From: Clostridiales bacterium
Lineage (GTDB): Bacteria > Bacillota > Clostridia > Lachnospirales > Lachnospiraceae
Reading direction: 5' to 3'
NCBI GenBank assembly: GCA_021204085.1
Contig: JAJPZY010000090.1
Coordinates: forward strand, 1 to 64,000
DNA: 64,000 nucleotides
In this document: positions 6,146-60,504 of the stretch, one piece after another
How positions within the stretch are numbered: the stretch's first letter is position 1
Layout of the letters: every line of letters starts with the position of its first letter
Translations under genes and position numbers: made by a program
Notes under the pieces: generated by a model
Told to the model about the DNA's origin: nothing
Databases searched by the model: none
What the model saw: the letters and a program-made list of their open reading frames with translations, nothing else

Positions 6146-7243
6146 TTACTTTTCATATACAGTATAGTGATGCCGTTTCAGCAATGTCACAGCTTTGTCA
6201 TAGGACTGATGGTCGTAAAACTCCACCTGCAGGACGCCCTGTTGGAACTCCCGGTTATGGATGATACCGATGTTTTTAATGCTGATGCTGTTGGTTGCCA
6301 GAATTGTGGCAATTGTCGCGATTCCGCCCGCTTCATCGATCAGGTCAAGGAACAGCCGGTAAATCGGACGGAGCGCACCGCGGTTGATGTTGAAGGAATC
6401 GCGGTATTCTTTGGCGGAACTGAAAAAATTACGGATTTCCGCCTGGTCTCCGTGCGCGATGGTTTCTTTTGTCTCCTGAAACTTGTCGATAAAATCGTCG
6501 ATCAGTTCAAGTATCTGGTCTTTGTTGGCCACACAGATATTTTCCCACATGCAGGGATCGGAAGAAGCTACACGCGTAATATCCTTGAACCCGCCGGCTG
6601 CGATCGTCCGCAGCGTTTCGCTTTCGTCATCCAGACCTTTTACCAGATTCACCAGGGTACAGGCGATGACAGTCGGAAGATGGCTGATGGAACCCACGGA
6701 AAAATCATGCTTCTTATAATCAAGAATCAGAGGAATCGCGCCGATGCTCTTGATAAATAACTCGAATTCGATGACTTTTGAGTGGGAAACCGTGGGCGTC
6801 GGAGTCAGGACATAATAGGCGTTTTCCAGCATGTAAGGCGTGGAATTCTCATAACCGGTGTGTTCCGTGCCGCACATGGGATGTCCGCCGATGAAATGCT
6901 TCTCCAGATCCGGAAACAGGTGGATGTTTTCGTGAATTTTATTTTTTACACTTCCGACATCAGTTAACAGCATGTTTGCATGCAGAAGATCGGAAAGCTT
7001 CTGTACATACTCATTATTATCCAATACCGGTGCGCACAGGTAGATGTAATCACAGTCCGCAAATGCGTCTGTTACGCCGTCGCAGGCTTCTGTGATCACG
7101 CCGTCTTCCATTGCGGCCGCGAGGGTCTTAGCGCATGTGTCGTATGCGATCAGCGGAATATCCGGATAAATGCGGTGGATCGTTTTTGCGACAGAACCGC
7201 CGATATGTCCGAGACCGATAAAGCCAATTTTCTTTGGATTCAT
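6146..7243 (-). CDS. tyrA: prephenate dehydrogenase with C-terminal ACT-like region
   Basis: MNPKKIGFIGLGHIGGSVAKTIHRIYPD (Rossmann), GGHPMCGTEHTGYEN; start at 7243 preceded by TTTTGGAGGAC on the minus strand. Confidence 0.92.
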   Translation of the reverse strand: MNPKKIGFIGLGHIGGSVAKTIHRIYPDIPLIAYDTCAKTLAAAMEDGVITEACDGVTDAFADCDYIYLCAPVLDNNEYVQKLSDLLHANMLLTDVGSVKNKIHENIHLFPDLEKHFIGGHPMCGTEHTGYENSTPYMLENAYYVLTPTPTVSHSKVIEFELFIKSIGAIPLILDYKKHDFSVGSISHLPTVIACTLVNLVKGLDDESETLRTIAAGGFKDITRVASSDPCMWENICVANKDQILELIDDFIDKFQETKETIAHGDQAEIRNFFSSAKEYRDSFNINRGALRPIYRLFLDLIDEAGGIATIATILATNSISIKNIGIIHNREFQQGVLQVEFYDHQSYDKAVTLLKRHHYTVYEK

Positions 7244-7439
7244 TTGTTTTTTGTCCTCCAAAACAGTGAATTGCATAATCGGTATAGATTTTAATACTTT
7301 TACGTGGGAAAGTCAATGATATGATTTTTGACCGGAAGAGAATCTTCTGTGATATGCATCGAACTGTTTTATATGTGCAAAAATATCTGCTGTTTGTCAG
7401 CCTTTGCGATTCCGCCTTGCCGAAATTGCATAAAAATAG

Positions 7440-44743: not shown

Positions 44744-47700
44744 ATGGCAAAGAATTTTTTTGAGGTGTTTCCTCAGTTAAAACTGAATGGCGATCTGGCA
44801 GGGATGCTCGAGGACACTACGGTGTCGCGGGTTTCCACGACCTCGCGCCGGGATTTTCTGCGCATCTACCTCTCCAGCAGCCGCCTGATTCCCAAACAGA
44901 AGGTATTTGTTCTGGAGCAGGAGATTAAGTGTCAGCTTTTTGCAAAGAAAAAAATCCGCATCTGTGTCATGGAAAAATTCTGCCTTTCCGAACAGTATAC
45001 GCTGCCGAATCTGATGGAGGCTTACTGGCCGTCTATCTTAAAAGAGTTTCAGAATTACAGCCAGGTGGAGTACAACCTGCTCCGCCATGCGAAATATGAA
45101 TGCACGGATCCGGGACATCTGGTCCTGACGCTGGAGGATTCTCTTCTGGCGCATCAGAAAGAGGATGAGATTTATCATATTATCGAAAAAATCCTTAATG
45201 AGCGCTGCGGAATGTCCGCACAAGTGATGATTCGTTTCTGTGAGAAAAAAGAATCTAAACTGAAACGAAACGCTGAGATTCAGATAAAGAATGAGGTGGA
45301 AAACATCATCCGTCAGTCTTCCTTCGGCAGGAATGACAGGGAAGAGTATCTGTCCGATGAGACAGTCTCGGAGGCTCCGTGGGAGGAGCCGGCGAAAGAA
45401 GGAAAACAAAAGCACAGTTACGGCTCAGGTGCGGAGCGGCCTGAAAAGAAACAAAAGGCGGGGAAAACAGGGAGTACTGCAGCCGGAACGCGAAGAGCAG
45501 ATTCCGGATTCAATCCGCAGGATGGAAATTCCGCTGAAAAAAGACAATACAGCGGCGGAAAAAATCGTTTTAATGGTCAGAATCGGGATGGCGCGGGAAG
45601 AGGCAGTTATCGCCGCAGCGACAATCCGGATGTAATTTATGGGCGTGATTTTGAAGAGGAATCAATCCGCATCGAACAGATCGCCGGTGAGATGGGCGAT
45701 GTCGTCATTCGCGGACAGGTACTCTCAGTGGAAGACCGTCCGATCCGAAATGAGAAGACCATTCTGATGTTTGCGGTTACAGACTTTACAGACACAATAA
45801 AAGTAAAGATGTTCTGCAGAAATGACATTCTCCCGGAAATCAAAGAGGGGGTAAAAGAAGGAGCATTTTTAAAAATCAAAGGCGTGACGACCATCGATCG
45901 CTTTGATCATGAGCTGACGATCGGTTCTGTCCTTGGAATGAAAAAAATTCCTTCCTTTGTGACGACACGGATGGATACCAGCCCGGAGAAACGGGTGGAA
46001 CTTCACTGTCATACGAAGATGAGTGACATGGACGGTGTCTCCGATGTAAAGGATATCATCAAACGGGCCATGAAATGGGGACATAAGGCAATCGCCATCA
46101 CAGATCATGGCGATGTGCAGGCGTTTACGGACGCTGCTCATATGTTGGGAAAAGGGGATGATTTCAAGATCCTGTATGGAATGGAGGCTTATCTCGTTGA
46201 TGATCTTAAAGGTCTGGTAGAAAACCCGCACGGACAGAAGCTGGATCATACATTTGTTGTCTTTGACCTGGAAACAACGGGATTTTCTCCTGAGAAGAAT
46301 AAGATCATTGAGATCGGGGCGGTAAAAGTGGAGGACGGAAAAATCACGGAGCGGTTTTCCACTTTTGTAAACCCTCAGACGCCGATCCCCTATGATATTG
46401 AGAAACTGACGGACATCAATGATGAGATGGTTCTTGACGCGCCGCTGATCGATCAGGCACTGCCGGAATTTATGGAGTTTTCAAAAGATGCGGTAATGGT
46501 GGCGCATAACGCGGATTTTGACATGAGTTTTATCAGAAAAAACTGTGAGCTTCTGGAAATCCCCTGTGAGAAAACCGTGCTCGATACGGTTTCGCTGGCG
46601 CGCGCGCTTCTTCCTCAGCTGAACCGCTATAAGCTGGATACGGTGGCGAAGGCTTTGCAGATTCCGCTGAACCATCATCACAGAGCGGTGGATGACGCGG
46701 GTTGTACCGCAGAGATTTTTGTGAAATTTATTGAGATGCTCCGTGCCCGGGATATTGAGAACCTGGATCAGCTGGAGATGATGGATGCATCTTCGGAGGA
46801 AAGTGTCCGCAAGCTTCCTACATACCATGCCATTATGATTGCGCAGAATGATATCGGCAGAGTGAATTTATACAAGCTTGTATCCGATTCCCATATTAAA
46901 TATTTTAACCGGCGTCCGCGCGTGCCGAAAAGTGAATTTGCACAGTGCAGGGAGGGAATTCTTCTCGGCTCCGCCTGTGAGGCCGGCGAGCTGTACCGGG
47001 CGATTTTAAATGGGCGTCCGGCGGAGGAGATTACACGGATTGCCGCATTTTACGATTATCTGGAGATTCAGCCGCTCGGAAACAATGCCTTCATGCTCCG
47101 TGATGAGAAGAGTCCGGTGGATTCGATGGAGGATATTCAGGATATCAACCGCAGAATTGTTGACCTCGGAGAACAGTTAAATAAGCCGGTGGTGGCGACC
47201 TGCGACGTGCATTTCCTGGATCCGGAGGATGAGATTTACCGGCGTATTATCATGGCCGGTAAGGGATTTAAGGACGCGGACGACCAGGCGCCGCTTTATT
47301 TGCGGACGACGGAAGAGATGCTGGAGGAGTTTTCTTATCTCGGAAGTGAGAAAGCGGAAGAGGTGGTTATCACAAATACCAATAAAATCGCGGATATGTG
47401 TGAACGCATCGATCCGGTGCGGCCGGATAAGTGTCCGCCGGAGATTGAGAATTCCGATCAGATGCTGCGTAAGATCTGCTACAACCGGGCGCATGAGATA
47501 TACGGGGAAAAGCTGCCGGAAATCGTGGAAGAACGGCTGGAGCGGGAGCTGAACTCGATCATCTCCAATGGGTTTGCCGTGATGTATATCATCGCCCAGA
47601 AGCTGGTATGGAAGTCGAACGAGGATGGCTATCTGGTGGGATCCCGCGGTTCTGTCGGCTCCTCCCTGGTGGCGACGATGGCGGGAATTACGGAGGTAAA

Positions 47701-49342
47701 CCCGTTAAGTCCGCATTACATATGCCCGAATTGCCATTACGTGGATTTTGATTCGGAAGAGGTCAGGCAGTATGCCGGGCGTGCAGGCTGCGATATGCCG
47801 GATCGTGATTGTCCGGTCTGCGGGACAAAACTAAAGAAAGAGGGTTTCGATATTCCGTTTGAGACTTTTCTTGGATTTAAGGGGAATAAGGAGCCGGATA
47901 TCGACCTGAACTTTTCCGGCGAGTATCAGAGCAAAGCGCACAAATACACAGAGGTTATTTTCGGAGACGGCCAGACCTTCCGTGCGGGAACCATCGGAAC
48001 GCTGGCAGACAAGACTGCTTTCGGATATGTGAAAAACTATTTTGAAGAGCGGGATATTCATAAGCGTAACTGTGAGATTGACCGTATTCTTCAGGGATGT
48101 GTCGGGGTGCGCCGGACGACAGGGCAGCATCCGGGCGGTATTATCGTTTTGCCCCGGGGGGAAAATATCTATTCCTTTACTCCGGTGCAGCATCCGGCCA
48201 ATGATATGGATACGGATATTATCACGACACACTTTGATTATCACTCCATTGATCATAACCTCCTAAAGCTTGATATACTGGGACACGATGATCCGACCAT
48301 GATCCGTATGCTGCAGGATCTGACGGGGGTCGACCCGCAGGATATTCCGCTGGATTCGCCGGAGGTCATGTCGCTTTTCCAGAACACTTCTGCGCTCGGC
48401 ATTGAACCGGAGGACATCGGCGGCTGCCAGCTGGGAGCGCTCGGCATTCCGGAGTTCGGCACGGACTTTGCCATGCAGATGCTGATTGATACGAAGCCGA
48501 CGCAGTTTTCCGACCTGGTGCGGATCGCGGGACTTTCCCACGGAACAGATGTGTGGCTTGACAACGCGCAGACACTGATCCAGGAGGGAAAGGCAACTAT
48601 CTCAACGGCAATCTGTACCCGTGATGATATCATGATATATCTCATCGGAAAAGGAATGGATTCCGAGGAGTCTTTTAACATCATGGAAAAAGTCCGGAAG
48701 GGTGTGGTTGCCAAGGGCAAATGCGCAGAATGGCCGCAGTGGAAGCAGGATATGATCGACCACGACGTGCCGGACTGGTATATCTGGTCCTGTGAGAAGA
48801 TCAAATATATGTTCCCGAAAGCCCATGCGGCGGCTTATGTTATGATGGCGTGGCGGATTGCCTGGTGCAAGGTATTTTATCCCCTGGCTTACTATGCGGC
48901 GTTTTTCAGTATTCGTGCTACCGCTTTTAACTACGAGCTCATGTGTCAGGGGCGCGACCGCCTGGAGTATTATCTGGAGGATTACCGGAAGCGGAAGGAT
49001 ACCCTGACAAAAAAGGAGCAGGATACGCTCCGCGACATGCGTGTTGTCGAGGAAATGTATGCGCGGGGATTTGAATTCTGGCCGCTGGATATCTATAAAG
49101 CGAAGGCCCGCCATTTTCAGATCATTGACGGAAAGCTGATGCCGGCGATCAATACCATCGACGGGATGGGCGATAAGGCGGCGGAGGGAGTCGTTGAGGC
49201 GGCGAAGGACGGACCTTTCCTTTCGCGGGATGATTTTCGGGAACGTTCGAAAGTCAGTAAGACAGTGGTAGATCTTATGGGTGACCTGGGATTGCTCGGA
49301 GATCTGCCGGAATCCAATCAGCTGTCACTGTTTGATCTTTAA
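44744..49342 (+). CDS. polC: DNA polymerase III alpha subunit, PolC type
   Basis: 1532 aa; OB fold, PHP (VELHCHTKMSDMDGVSD), DnaQ-like exonuclease (FVVFDLETTGFSPEKNKIIEIGAVKV), polymerase core. Confidence 0.98.
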   Translation: MAKNFFEVFPQLKLNGDLAGMLEDTTVSRVSTTSRRDFLRIYLSSSRLIPKQKVFVLEQEIKCQLFAKKKIRICVMEKFCLSEQYTLPNLMEAYWPSILKEFQNYSQVEYNLLRHAKYECTDPGHLVLTLEDSLLAHQKEDEIYHIIEKILNERCGMSAQVMIRFCEKKESKLKRNAEIQIKNEVENIIRQSSFGRNDREEYLSDETVSEAPWEEPAKEGKQKHSYGSGAERPEKKQKAGKTGSTAAGTRRADSGFNPQDGNSAEKRQYSGGKNRFNGQNRDGAGRGSYRRSDNPDVIYGRDFEEESIRIEQIAGEMGDVVIRGQVLSVEDRPIRNEKTILMFAVTDFTDTIKVKMFCRNDILPEIKEGVKEGAFLKIKGVTTIDRFDHELTIGSVLGMKKIPSFVTTRMDTSPEKRVELHCHTKMSDMDGVSDVKDIIKRAMKWGHKAIAITDHGDVQAFTDAAHMLGKGDDFKILYGMEAYLVDDLKGLVENPHGQKLDHTFVVFDLETTGFSPEKNKIIEIGAVKVEDGKITERFSTFVNPQTPIPYDIEKLTDINDEMVLDAPLIDQALPEFMEFSKDAVMVAHNADFDMSFIRKNCELLEIPCEKTVLDTVSLARALLPQLNRYKLDTVAKALQIPLNHHHRAVDDAGCTAEIFVKFIEMLRARDIENLDQLEMMDASSEESVRKLPTYHAIMIAQNDIGRVNLYKLVSDSHIKYFNRRPRVPKSEFAQCREGILLGSACEAGELYRAILNGRPAEEITRIAAFYDYLEIQPLGNNAFMLRDEKSPVDSMEDIQDINRRIVDLGEQLNKPVVATCDVHFLDPEDEIYRRIIMAGKGFKDADDQAPLYLRTTEEMLEEFSYLGSEKAEEVVITNTNKIADMCERIDPVRPDKCPPEIENSDQMLRKICYNRAHEIYGEKLPEIVEERLERELNSIISNGFAVMYIIAQKLVWKSNEDGYLVGSRGSVGSSLVATMAGITEVNPLSPHYICPNCHYVDFDSEEVRQYAGRAGCDMPDRDCPVCGTKLKKEGFDIPFETFLGFKGNKEPDIDLNFSGEYQSKAHKYTEVIFGDGQTFRAGTIGTLADKTAFGYVKNYFEERDIHKRNCEIDRILQGCVGVRRTTGQHPGGIIVLPRGENIYSFTPVQHPANDMDTDIITTHFDYHSIDHNLLKLDILGHDDPTMIRMLQDLTGVDPQDIPLDSPEVMSLFQNTSALGIEPEDIGGCQLGALGIPEFGTDFAMQMLIDTKPTQFSDLVRIAGLSHGTDVWLDNAQTLIQEGKATISTAICTRDDIMIYLIGKGMDSEESFNIMEKVRKGVVAKGKCAEWPQWKQDMIDHDVPDWYIWSCEKIKYMFPKAHAAAYVMMAWRIAWCKVFYPLAYYAAFFSIRATAFNYELMCQGRDRLEYYLEDYRKRKDTLTKKEQDTLRDMRVVEEMYARGFEFWPLDIYKAKARHFQIIDGKLMPAINTIDGMGDKAAEGVVEAAKDGPFLSRDDFRERSKVSKTVVDLMGDLGLLGDLPESNQLSLFDL

Positions 49343-49367: not shown

Positions 49368-50303
49368 ATGAAGGATTTACAGGAGATCCGTAAGGATATT
49401 GATGCGATTGACCGACAGATTGTAGAATTGTATGAGGAACGGATGGAACTGACTACACAGGTGGCGGATTACAAAATCTCTACCGGGAAACAGGTGTTTG
49501 ACGCGGAGCGGGAGGTCTCGAAGCTGAATACGGTGGCGCAGATGGCGCACTCGGATTTTACCAGCCACGGAGTTCGCGAACTCTTTGAGCATATCATGTC
49601 GATGAGCCGGAAGAAACAGTACCAGCTTCTGACGGAACACGGAAAATTTGCTCCGACCGGTTTCGTGGAAGTCAGTGAACTGGATTTTTCCCACGCTGCC
49701 GCCGCGTGTATTGAAGCTTCTCAGGCTGCGGCGAAGAGCTATTTTTCCTCGGAAAGAAAAACAGGCATGCTTCCTGAGACGAAGGATATGAAGCCGGGAA
49801 AATCAGCCGATAGCGGGGAGGGTTTATGCGGACTTCTTCTTTGCGAAGACTGGCGGGAAGCCTGCGAAACATTGAAAAAGGGGGAGGTCAATTATCTCTT
49901 CCTTCCGGTTCAGGATCCGAAGTCCGGGTATGTATCATCCAATTATAACCTGGTAGCGGAATATGGGTTTTATATATTGGAAGAATACCGTACCAGCCCG
50001 GAGCCGAAGGATCGGTATGCGCTGATTTCACGGGACAAGCTTTCCTTAAGCGGCGCGGATAAGATCACCATTTGTTTTGAGGCGCCGGACGTCTGCGGCT
50101 CCCTTTACCACCTGATGTCGCATCTGACTTATAACAACCTGAATATGAATCGTATTGAATCAATCGTGATCTCCAGGGAACCGCTGGATTATCGGTTTTT
50201 TATGGATTTAAGCGGAAACTTAAATGACAGTGCGATCAAAAATGCGATTCTCGGCCTGGGAGGCGAAGCGCGGAATTTCAAGATTCTGGGAAATTATCGA
50301 TAG
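49368..50303 (+). CDS. chorismate mutase domain protein with C-terminal ACT domain; prephenate dehydratase core apparently shortened/degenerate
   Basis: N-term LQEIRKDIDAIDRQIVELYEERMELTTQVADYK (AroQ type); C-term DVCGSLYHLMSHLTYNNLNMNRIESIVIS (ACT); middle lacks TRF and NTA-type motifs. Confidence 0.8.
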   Translation: MKDLQEIRKDIDAIDRQIVELYEERMELTTQVADYKISTGKQVFDAEREVSKLNTVAQMAHSDFTSHGVRELFEHIMSMSRKKQYQLLTEHGKFAPTGFVEVSELDFSHAAAACIEASQAAAKSYFSSERKTGMLPETKDMKPGKSADSGEGLCGLLLCEDWREACETLKKGEVNYLFLPVQDPKSGYVSSNYNLVAEYGFYILEEYRTSPEPKDRYALISRDKLSLSGADKITICFEAPDVCGSLYHLMSHLTYNNLNMNRIESIVISREPLDYRFFMDLSGNLNDSAIKNAILGLGGEARNFKILGNYR

Positions 50304-50318
50304 GGAGGCAAATGAGTT

Positions 50319-51128
50319 ATGGACAGGAAAATGTTTTTCCTGGATATGGACGGGACGACGCTGCGCGATGACAAATCCATCCCGGAGGAGAATATTGAGG
50401 CGATTCAGGCAGCGCTTGCTCTCGGAAATTTTATTACGATTGCTACCGGTAGGACGTATGTCAGCATGCAGCCTCTCATCCGTAAGCTTGGCATGCAGCG
50501 GGAAGGATGTTTTCTGATTGCCTGTAACGGTGCGCTCCTGTATGATCTGAAAACCGGGGAAATCCTGTACGAGAGAAATCTGCCGGATGCTTACGCGGCA
50601 TATCTGTTCGCAGAAGCGGAGAAGTATGATCTGTACATGCAGTCGTTTGACGGCAGTGGTTTCCTCGCGCGGCAGGTTTGTCCGGAGGCGGAGCTTTATA
50701 CGCGGACATCCTTTCTGAATTACCGCATTGTTCCGGATCTCTGCCATTTGGAAAAATACAATACGCCGAAGGTGATGCTGATCTCCGTGGATGACCGCGC
50801 CGCTCTGCAAAAGTTTCAGGATGATCACCGTGCGTGGGAGAACGGCAGATGCATCAGTTTCTTCACATCCCCGCAGTATCTGGAATATTGCCCTGCGGGC
50901 TGTACCAAGGCCTCCGGTATTCCGTTTTTTGAGCAGCGCTTCGGTATTGCGCATGAAAACACCATTGCGGTCGGCGATGAGGAAAACGACCTGCCGATGA
51001 TCCAGGCGGCCGGCATCGGAATCGCCATGAAAAATGCCGGGGAAAACATCCGTAAATATGCGGATGAAGTCACGGAAAGAGACAATAATCATGGCGGGGT
51101 CGCCGATGTGATCCGGCGGTATATGTGA
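50319..51128 (+). CDS. Cof-type HAD-IIB family hydrolase
   Basis: FFLDMDGTTLRDDKSIPEENIEAI; IAVGDEENDLPMIQAAGIGIAMKNA. Confidence 0.93.
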   Translation: MDRKMFFLDMDGTTLRDDKSIPEENIEAIQAALALGNFITIATGRTYVSMQPLIRKLGMQREGCFLIACNGALLYDLKTGEILYERNLPDAYAAYLFAEAEKYDLYMQSFDGSGFLARQVCPEAELYTRTSFLNYRIVPDLCHLEKYNTPKVMLISVDDRAALQKFQDDHRAWENGRCISFFTSPQYLEYCPAGCTKASGIPFFEQRFGIAHENTIAVGDEENDLPMIQAAGIGIAMKNAGENIRKYADEVTERDNNHGGVADVIRRYM

Positions 51129-60179: not shown

Positions 60180-60504
60180 GTAAAGTCGATGAGCAAAAAG
60201 AGTACTTTTACAGACTGTTCTACAGAGAGCCGGAGGAGCTGAGATTCCGGAGTACAAGTGTAAAGGGAATGGGTTTGTGAGACGTGACTGCGAAAGGTTT
60301 CTCAGTTTAGTAGCAGCCGCCGTGTTCCTCACGTTACAGAGGGCAGATATCGAATCGAAGCTGATGATATACGTTTTATTGAATGAGCAGCAGATGATTC
60401 TGTATCGGTTGAGGTTGACATGTCCTTCTGACATTGTCGATGAACAAGGGTGGCATCACGATGATTCGTCCCTGATTGTGATTTTTCACAATCAGGGATT
60501 TTTT
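60180..60504 (+). promoter_or_regulatory. T-box leader (tRNA-Trp specific, specifier TGG proposed at 60270-60272)
   Basis: Stem I elements AGAGAGCCGGAGGAGCTGAGATTCCGG and GGGAATGGGTTTG; T-box AAGGGTGGCATCACG at 60446-60460; terminator TCCCTGATTGTGatttttCACAATCAGGGATTTTTT. Confidence 0.92.

Follow-up and report, generated by a model that had tools for sequence, protein, structure and literature searches.

A chorismate mutase that carries one dead lobe of prephenate dehydratase and an ACT domain, probably half of a split P-protein in a Lachnospiraceae genus

A stop-free open reading frame at 49368-50303 (+) of the window, by which we mean the whole 64,000-nucleotide stretch of Lachnospiraceae DNA analyzed here, encodes a 311-aa protein that joins an intact chorismate mutase (CM) active site to a single, catalytically dead lobe of prephenate dehydratase (PDT) and a C-terminal ACT domain. 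The reading that we consider probable is that this protein is half of a naturally split P-protein, in which it serves as the sole CM of the genome, presumably regulated through its ACT domain, while a separate single-domain PDT carries out the dehydration. The coordinates of the features are given in Table 1.

Table 1. Features of the 311-aa protein gene and of related genes, in window coordinates.
Feature	Coordinates	Strand	Basis
AroQ-type chorismate mutase domain, residues 1-90	49368..49637	+	R8, R25, K36, D45, R48, E49, S80, Q84 present
Front of PDT lobe 1, residues 97-126, with short GxxGxYS loop	49656..49745	+	Alignment; strand 111-115, helix 116-128 in model
Variable linker within lobe 1, residues 127-152, partly disordered	49746..49823	+	Alignment, pLDDT, dN/dS 0.66
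Remainder of PDT lobe 1 and strand to ACT, residues 153-228	49824..50051	+	PF00800 partial match, model, dN/dS
LPVQDP replacing catalytic LPIENS (N to D)	49902..49919	+	Motif alignment
Junction RTSPEPK standing where lobe 2 (~90 residues) is in relatives	49989..50009	+	Alignment; matches lobe lost in 7ALZ
DRY replacing catalytic TRF	50010..50018	+	Alignment
ACT domain, residues 229-311	50052..50300	+	Alignment to solved PDT ACT domains, model, dN/dS
ESIV replacing Phe-binding ESRP of ACT	50157..50168	+	Motif alignment
polC, conserved upstream neighbor	44744..49342	+	
HAD-family hydrolase, conserved downstream neighbor	50319..51128	+	
TyrA prephenate dehydrogenase, weak ACT-like tail, second consumer of CM product	6146..7276	-	

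The N-terminal region matched the Pfam CM_2 model over its whole length (residues 7-85, E 1.6e-22, 80 bits, cut-off 27). All eight CM active-site positions examined, with a numbering that we take from E. coli PheA, are present and invariant across 45 aligned proteins, bearing out the AroQ-type domain proposed in the initial annotation. The Pfam search returned no ACT match in the 311-aa protein, yet residues 231-310 can be aligned to the ACT domains of solved PDTs and adopt the ACT fold in a structural model, and the ACT domain that had been assigned to the C-terminus stands. The PF00800 match between the two is limited to model positions 25-77 of 181 (residues 156-208) and, at 18 bits, lies below the 25.2 cut-off, which together with the replaced catalytic threonine speaks against an intact PDT domain.

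Alignment with full-length PheAs of the family locates the missing part of the PDT. Lobe 1 is kept from its first strand through the GEQ strand, which reads EEY here; the gap opens after EEY and the sequence resumes at the TRF strand, which reads DRY, leaving out the approximately 90 residues of lobe 2 and with them the SHPQ and NTA stretches whose absence had been noted from the sequence. Within lobe 1, the GxxGxYS loop is also shorter, by about 4 residues, and this genome's protein contains an extra linker of about 26 residues (127-152) that several relatives do not have. The asparagine of PIEN and the glutamine of SHPQ have catalytic roles in E. coli PheA. In the 311-aa protein, PIENS has become VQDPK and TRF has become DRY, so that the catalytic N and T positions are both replaced (the latter by Asp, as initially read), and the region of the SHPQ glutamine is deleted. 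The earlier conclusion that this is not a functional dehydratase is thus well supported. The TRF, ESRP, and GALV motifs are documented for PDT and PheA (PMC10845154, PMC11980547). The ACT domain of the 311-aa protein has CGSL, and it has ESIV where ESRP is expected; this position reads ESIV in 12 of 12 genus members, GSVV in the L079 and L080 genes of another lineage, and [EQ]SRP in 31 of 31 full PheAs.

The protein shares with bifunctional PheA (P-protein) its domain order, CM active site, PDT lobe 1, and ACT domain, and the two are related by common descent, with 40-49% identity across aligned columns. It differs in having neither lobe 2 nor the catalytic N, Q, and T, in ESIV for ESRP, and in a PDT that resides in a separate gene. 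As the CM active site is complete and the defining features of the PDT, two lobes and the catalytic N/Q/T, are absent, the protein should not be annotated as a bifunctional PheA; a more fitting name is AroQ chorismate mutase with a tail of PDT lobe 1 and ACT.

Structure prediction, which the initial annotation had proposed, yielded an AlphaFold2 model (45 sequences, pLDDT 89.8, pTM 0.82) with a well-ordered half-domain of one lobe instead of two, in which strands and helices alternate (residues 111-115, 116-128, 155-159, 162-170, 176-180, 189-199, 202-208, and 216-221). The linker is the sole disordered part of this half-domain, with pLDDT below 50 at residues 133-139. The top 15 Foldseek matches in the PDB were all PDTs, the best being 7ALZ, the Komagataeibacter protein GqqA. 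During crystallization, the selenomethionine form of GqqA (SeGqqA) lost residues 86-170, one whole subdomain, through proteolysis, and the lobe-less protein retained the remaining fold (0.76 A) as well as L-Phe binding (PMC8192741). In our alignments, GqqA V85 and H171 lie no more than a few residues from where lobe 2 is missing in the 311-aa protein, and the lobe boundary used here was defined from the GqqA paper and these alignments. Because 7ALZ lost its lobe without collapsing, evolution here appears to have removed a physically dispensable lobe. Both cases present a folded PDT-ACT chain without the middle lobe; they differ in that SeGqqA is a crystal proteolysis product and not a gene, has no CM, and binds Phe through its own ACT motif. 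In the S. mutans PDT structure 4LUB, the chains as solved contain 188-190 of 276 residues, which may reflect the same effect.

The CM-halfPDT-ACT architecture is present in 17 of the 20 genomes of the genus, whose members include Eubacterium ramulus ATCC 29099 and strain 21 (public collection names), and the polC-[gene]-HAD synteny is visible in nearly all of them; orthologs within the Lachnospiraceae do, at the level of this genus, share the deletion. Pooled across five independent close pairs (Nei-Gojobori), dN/dS was 0.042 for CM, 0.064 for the front of the half-PDT, 0.050 for the rest of it, 0.005 for ACT, and 0.664 for the linker, a near-neutral yardstick inside the same genes. The corresponding values in ordinary fused PheAs were 0.060 (CM), 0.029 (lobe 1), 0.053 (lobe 2), and 0.020 (ACT). 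With the half-PDT at 0.05 and ACT at 0.005 against 0.66 for the linker, the half-domain is maintained by selection, and the constraint on ACT is at least as strong as in ordinary PheA. The initial description of a collapsed remnant therefore holds insofar as the PDT core is incomplete, but one whole lobe has been excised and the other is held under selection. The window does belong to a 151-contig draft genome; still, the probability of a sequencing or assembly artifact, or of a pseudogene restricted to this genome, is negligible, as the in-frame deletion is repeated in 17 species genomes, including E. ramulus isolates, with purifying selection. An artifact, a frameshift, or a decaying gene was rejected on these grounds. 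At the gene, an Rfam scan found no T-box and no other leader, and promoter and terminator scans were near the shuffled background. A T-box leader (99.5 bits) lies at 60180-60476 (+) of the window, 5' of trpE-, trpG-, and trpC-like ORFs.

The genome, which is 95% complete, holds one CM_2 match, the 49368-50303 gene itself, and one full PDT match, a solo protein of 186-188 aa without CM or ACT, encoded at G000:C14:5391-5957 (minus; L002:5391-5957). A PDT profile search found no second intact pheA in the genome, the solo PDT being its only full PDT domain. The solo PDT matches PF00800 above the cut-off (131 bits, positions 1-176) and keeps the catalytic N of PIEN, Q of SHPQ, and T of TRF, in motifs that read GISN or GVRN for PIEN and TTF for TRF. 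No NCBIfam PDT model reached its cut-off with this protein, and BLASTP of the 311-aa protein against it gave no meaningful alignment. Its gene and one for a class I/II aminotransferase point away from each other, the two being neighbors in five sampled genomes. Within the genus, a full PheA occurs in 0 of 20 genomes and the solo PDT in 16 of 20; the four genomes in which it was not found include G012, which is 97% complete and whose close relative ATCC 29099 has the gene. No CM was found in G016.

Across the family, PDT is present in 193 of 200 sampled genomes, nearly all as ORFs of fused-PheA length. Of 334 sampled Lachnospiraceae genera, two, the source genus and g35, have the solo type, and a 399-genome phylum sample contained no further genome with it. 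In the PDT tree, the solo proteins form one clade on a very long stem (3.3 changes per column) with no closer kin in the phylum sample. Direct descent from the local PheA is unsupported by this placement, and the long stem is compatible with two origins: the solo PDT may be a fast-evolved local copy or an import. Other PDT arrangements were also observed. L159, a 575-aa ORF, fuses FolB, HPPK, PDT, and ACT (Pfam) and so combines steps of folate and Phe synthesis. The PDT proteins L158, L166, and L167 carry an N-terminal lipoprotein-like signal (SGCGSK, AAGCGNK, or FAGCGKA) and are apparently exported; their host genomes (G225, G174, and G195) hold another PDT gene as well.

A series of states is seen at the polC position of the genus: the CM-halfPDT-ACT gene in 17 genomes, a CM with a very diverged second half and ACT in G013, and a CM alone in G008. 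By PolC, G008 is the sister of G003, which keeps the whole protein. The CM-only gene of G008 (L023:1501-1824) is strongly diverged, though the PolC of G008 is nearly identical to that of G003, which suggests faster change once the ACT part was lost. In genus g35 (G066), polC is likewise followed by a CM alone, and the solo PDT adjoins an aminotransferase gene. The loss in G008 and g35 and the near-loss in G013 indicate that the half-PDT-ACT part is useful yet losable.

A homologous CM-halfPDT-ACT gene lies beside addB-maf in a third lineage (L079, L080, and L118); it is complete in L079 and L080, and the L118 copy is cut by a contig end. The genomes of L080 and L118 also hold a PDT-ACT protein (L147 and L148) with a shortened CM part, which in L148 goes unrecognized by Pfam. 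As a degenerate CM in one protein accompanies a degenerate PDT in the other, the losses are reciprocal, and the two reactions are again divided between two proteins. A tree of the CM and ACT columns unites the L079/L080 group with the genus in a single clade (100/100), although the AU test still allows the genus to be a clade by itself (p-AU 0.19). The PolC tree places the L079/L080 group outside the genus, and together with the gene neighborhood this is suggestive, but not proof, of horizontal transfer into that lineage. A further family genome, G047, carries a CM-only protein after pyrBI-like genes (L142:1997-2431) and an unrelated solo PDT (a 189-aa ORF, L151), an independent split of PheA.

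We propose that the gene arose from an ordinary CM-PDT-ACT pheA by excision of the second PDT lobe. The 311-aa protein, as the only CM, would supply prephenate for both Phe and Tyr, since the presence of TyrA in the window means that CM feeds two branches. PDT lobe 1 would remain as a folded, non-catalytic connector between CM and ACT, and the dehydration of prephenate would fall to the solo PDT. By analogy with PheA and 7ALZ, the ACT domain would pair two chains and bind a ligand; most likely it dimerizes the protein and tunes CM to an aromatic amino acid or a related ligand. As the solo PDT lacks an ACT domain, feedback would be exerted on CM. Candidate ligands are Phe in a different binding mode, Tyr, and some other metabolite, since the ESRP motif, on which Phe sensing by PheA depends, has been replaced by ESIV across the genus and by GSVV in the third lineage. 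A change in this motif desensitizes the E. coli PDT to Phe (PMC11980547), which counts against Phe regulation here. The initial suggestion of a Phe-regulated CM thus finds support in the intact CM and in an ACT domain under tighter constraint than any other part, but less in the choice of Phe as the ligand, given the changed motif. We infer CM activity for the 311-aa protein, PDT activity for the solo protein, and regulation of the former by a ligand.

Such a division of labor agrees with the behavior of E. coli PheA, of which residues 1-109, 101-285, and 286-386 carry CM, PDT, and regulation separately (PMC8192741), and with the fused PheAs found in other Lachnospiraceae genera. Against it stand the lineages in which ACT is dispensable (G008 and g35 with CM only, G013 with a very diverged ACT), as well as the four genus genomes without a detected solo PDT, the missing CM of G016, and the divergence of the solo PDT with its TTF motif. 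The dispensable ACT fits a plain monofunctional CM, in which the half-PDT and ACT are leftover pheA baggage without a regulatory role, and so does the changed ESRP motif; we nevertheless judge this quite unlikely, as dN/dS for half-PDT (0.05) and ACT (0.005) lies far below that of the linker (0.66) within the same genes and the whole architecture is kept in 17 of 20 genomes.

Selection on a catalytically dead lobe would also be expected if the lobe 1-ACT part docked the solo PDT, rebuilding a P-protein in trans with ACT in control of the solo enzyme. The two genes are found together in the genus, and nearly every other sampled genus has the single-chain arrangement. In g35 and G008, however, the solo PDT is accompanied by a CM-only protein, which means that it can do without a partner lobe; in L080 the half-domain protein occurs in the absence of any solo PDT, and the two genes are unlinked. 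We consider such a complex improbable. An equally unlikely reading is that the solo protein is a related enzyme, for example a prephenate decarboxylase, and that these bacteria are unable to make Phe. Its long stem, its TTF and GISN/GVRN motifs, and the failure of any NCBIfam PDT model to reach cut-off would fit this, whereas its full-domain PF00800 match exceeds the cut-off, it keeps SHPQ and the catalytic N, Q, and T, and an aminotransferase gene adjoins it in five sampled genomes; the genome also has TyrA and a T-box-led trp operon. The split P-protein remains our preferred reading.

Allosteric AroQ chorismate mutases include the M. tuberculosis CM with DAHP synthase and the fungal Aro7/AroC. 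These are controlled from outside the CM active site, and by analogy the same would be expected of the 311-aa protein; in their case, however, control comes from a partner DAHP synthase or from a site within the protein, and not from a dead PDT lobe with ACT. The nearest published idea is the TyrA of Pseudomonas syringae with a truncated AroF remnant, where one enzyme of an aromatic-pathway fusion was lost, a new gene for the step arose elsewhere, and the authors suggest that the remnant might become a regulatory domain (PMC1173090). In both cases a remnant is kept on the other enzyme; the P. syringae case concerns another pathway step and one species, with no selection on the remnant reported in the passage concerned. 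The same paper describes an enteric lineage in which the pheA domain of aroQ-pheA is turning into a pseudogene (PMC1173090). We found no paper on a lobe-less PheA in the open-access literature, where absence is no proof.

A further idea, of low probability, is a new allosteric CM whose ESIV-type ACT, together with the dead lobe of PDT, senses a ligand other than the original one, or else serves the solo PDT as a docking platform, giving a two-gene P-protein; the addB-maf module (L079/L080 with L147/L148) would then look like exchangeable halves, possibly transferred horizontally. In total, fused, half-domain, nearly ACT-less, and CM-only forms within one family present a case of natural domain surgery, and they raise the question of whether an ACT domain evolved for control of the dehydratase can be rewired to the mutase after lobe loss. 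For annotation, the standard full-length PheA architecture is found in neither gene of this genome, and the group would depend on an unusual solo PDT for its Phe prototrophy.
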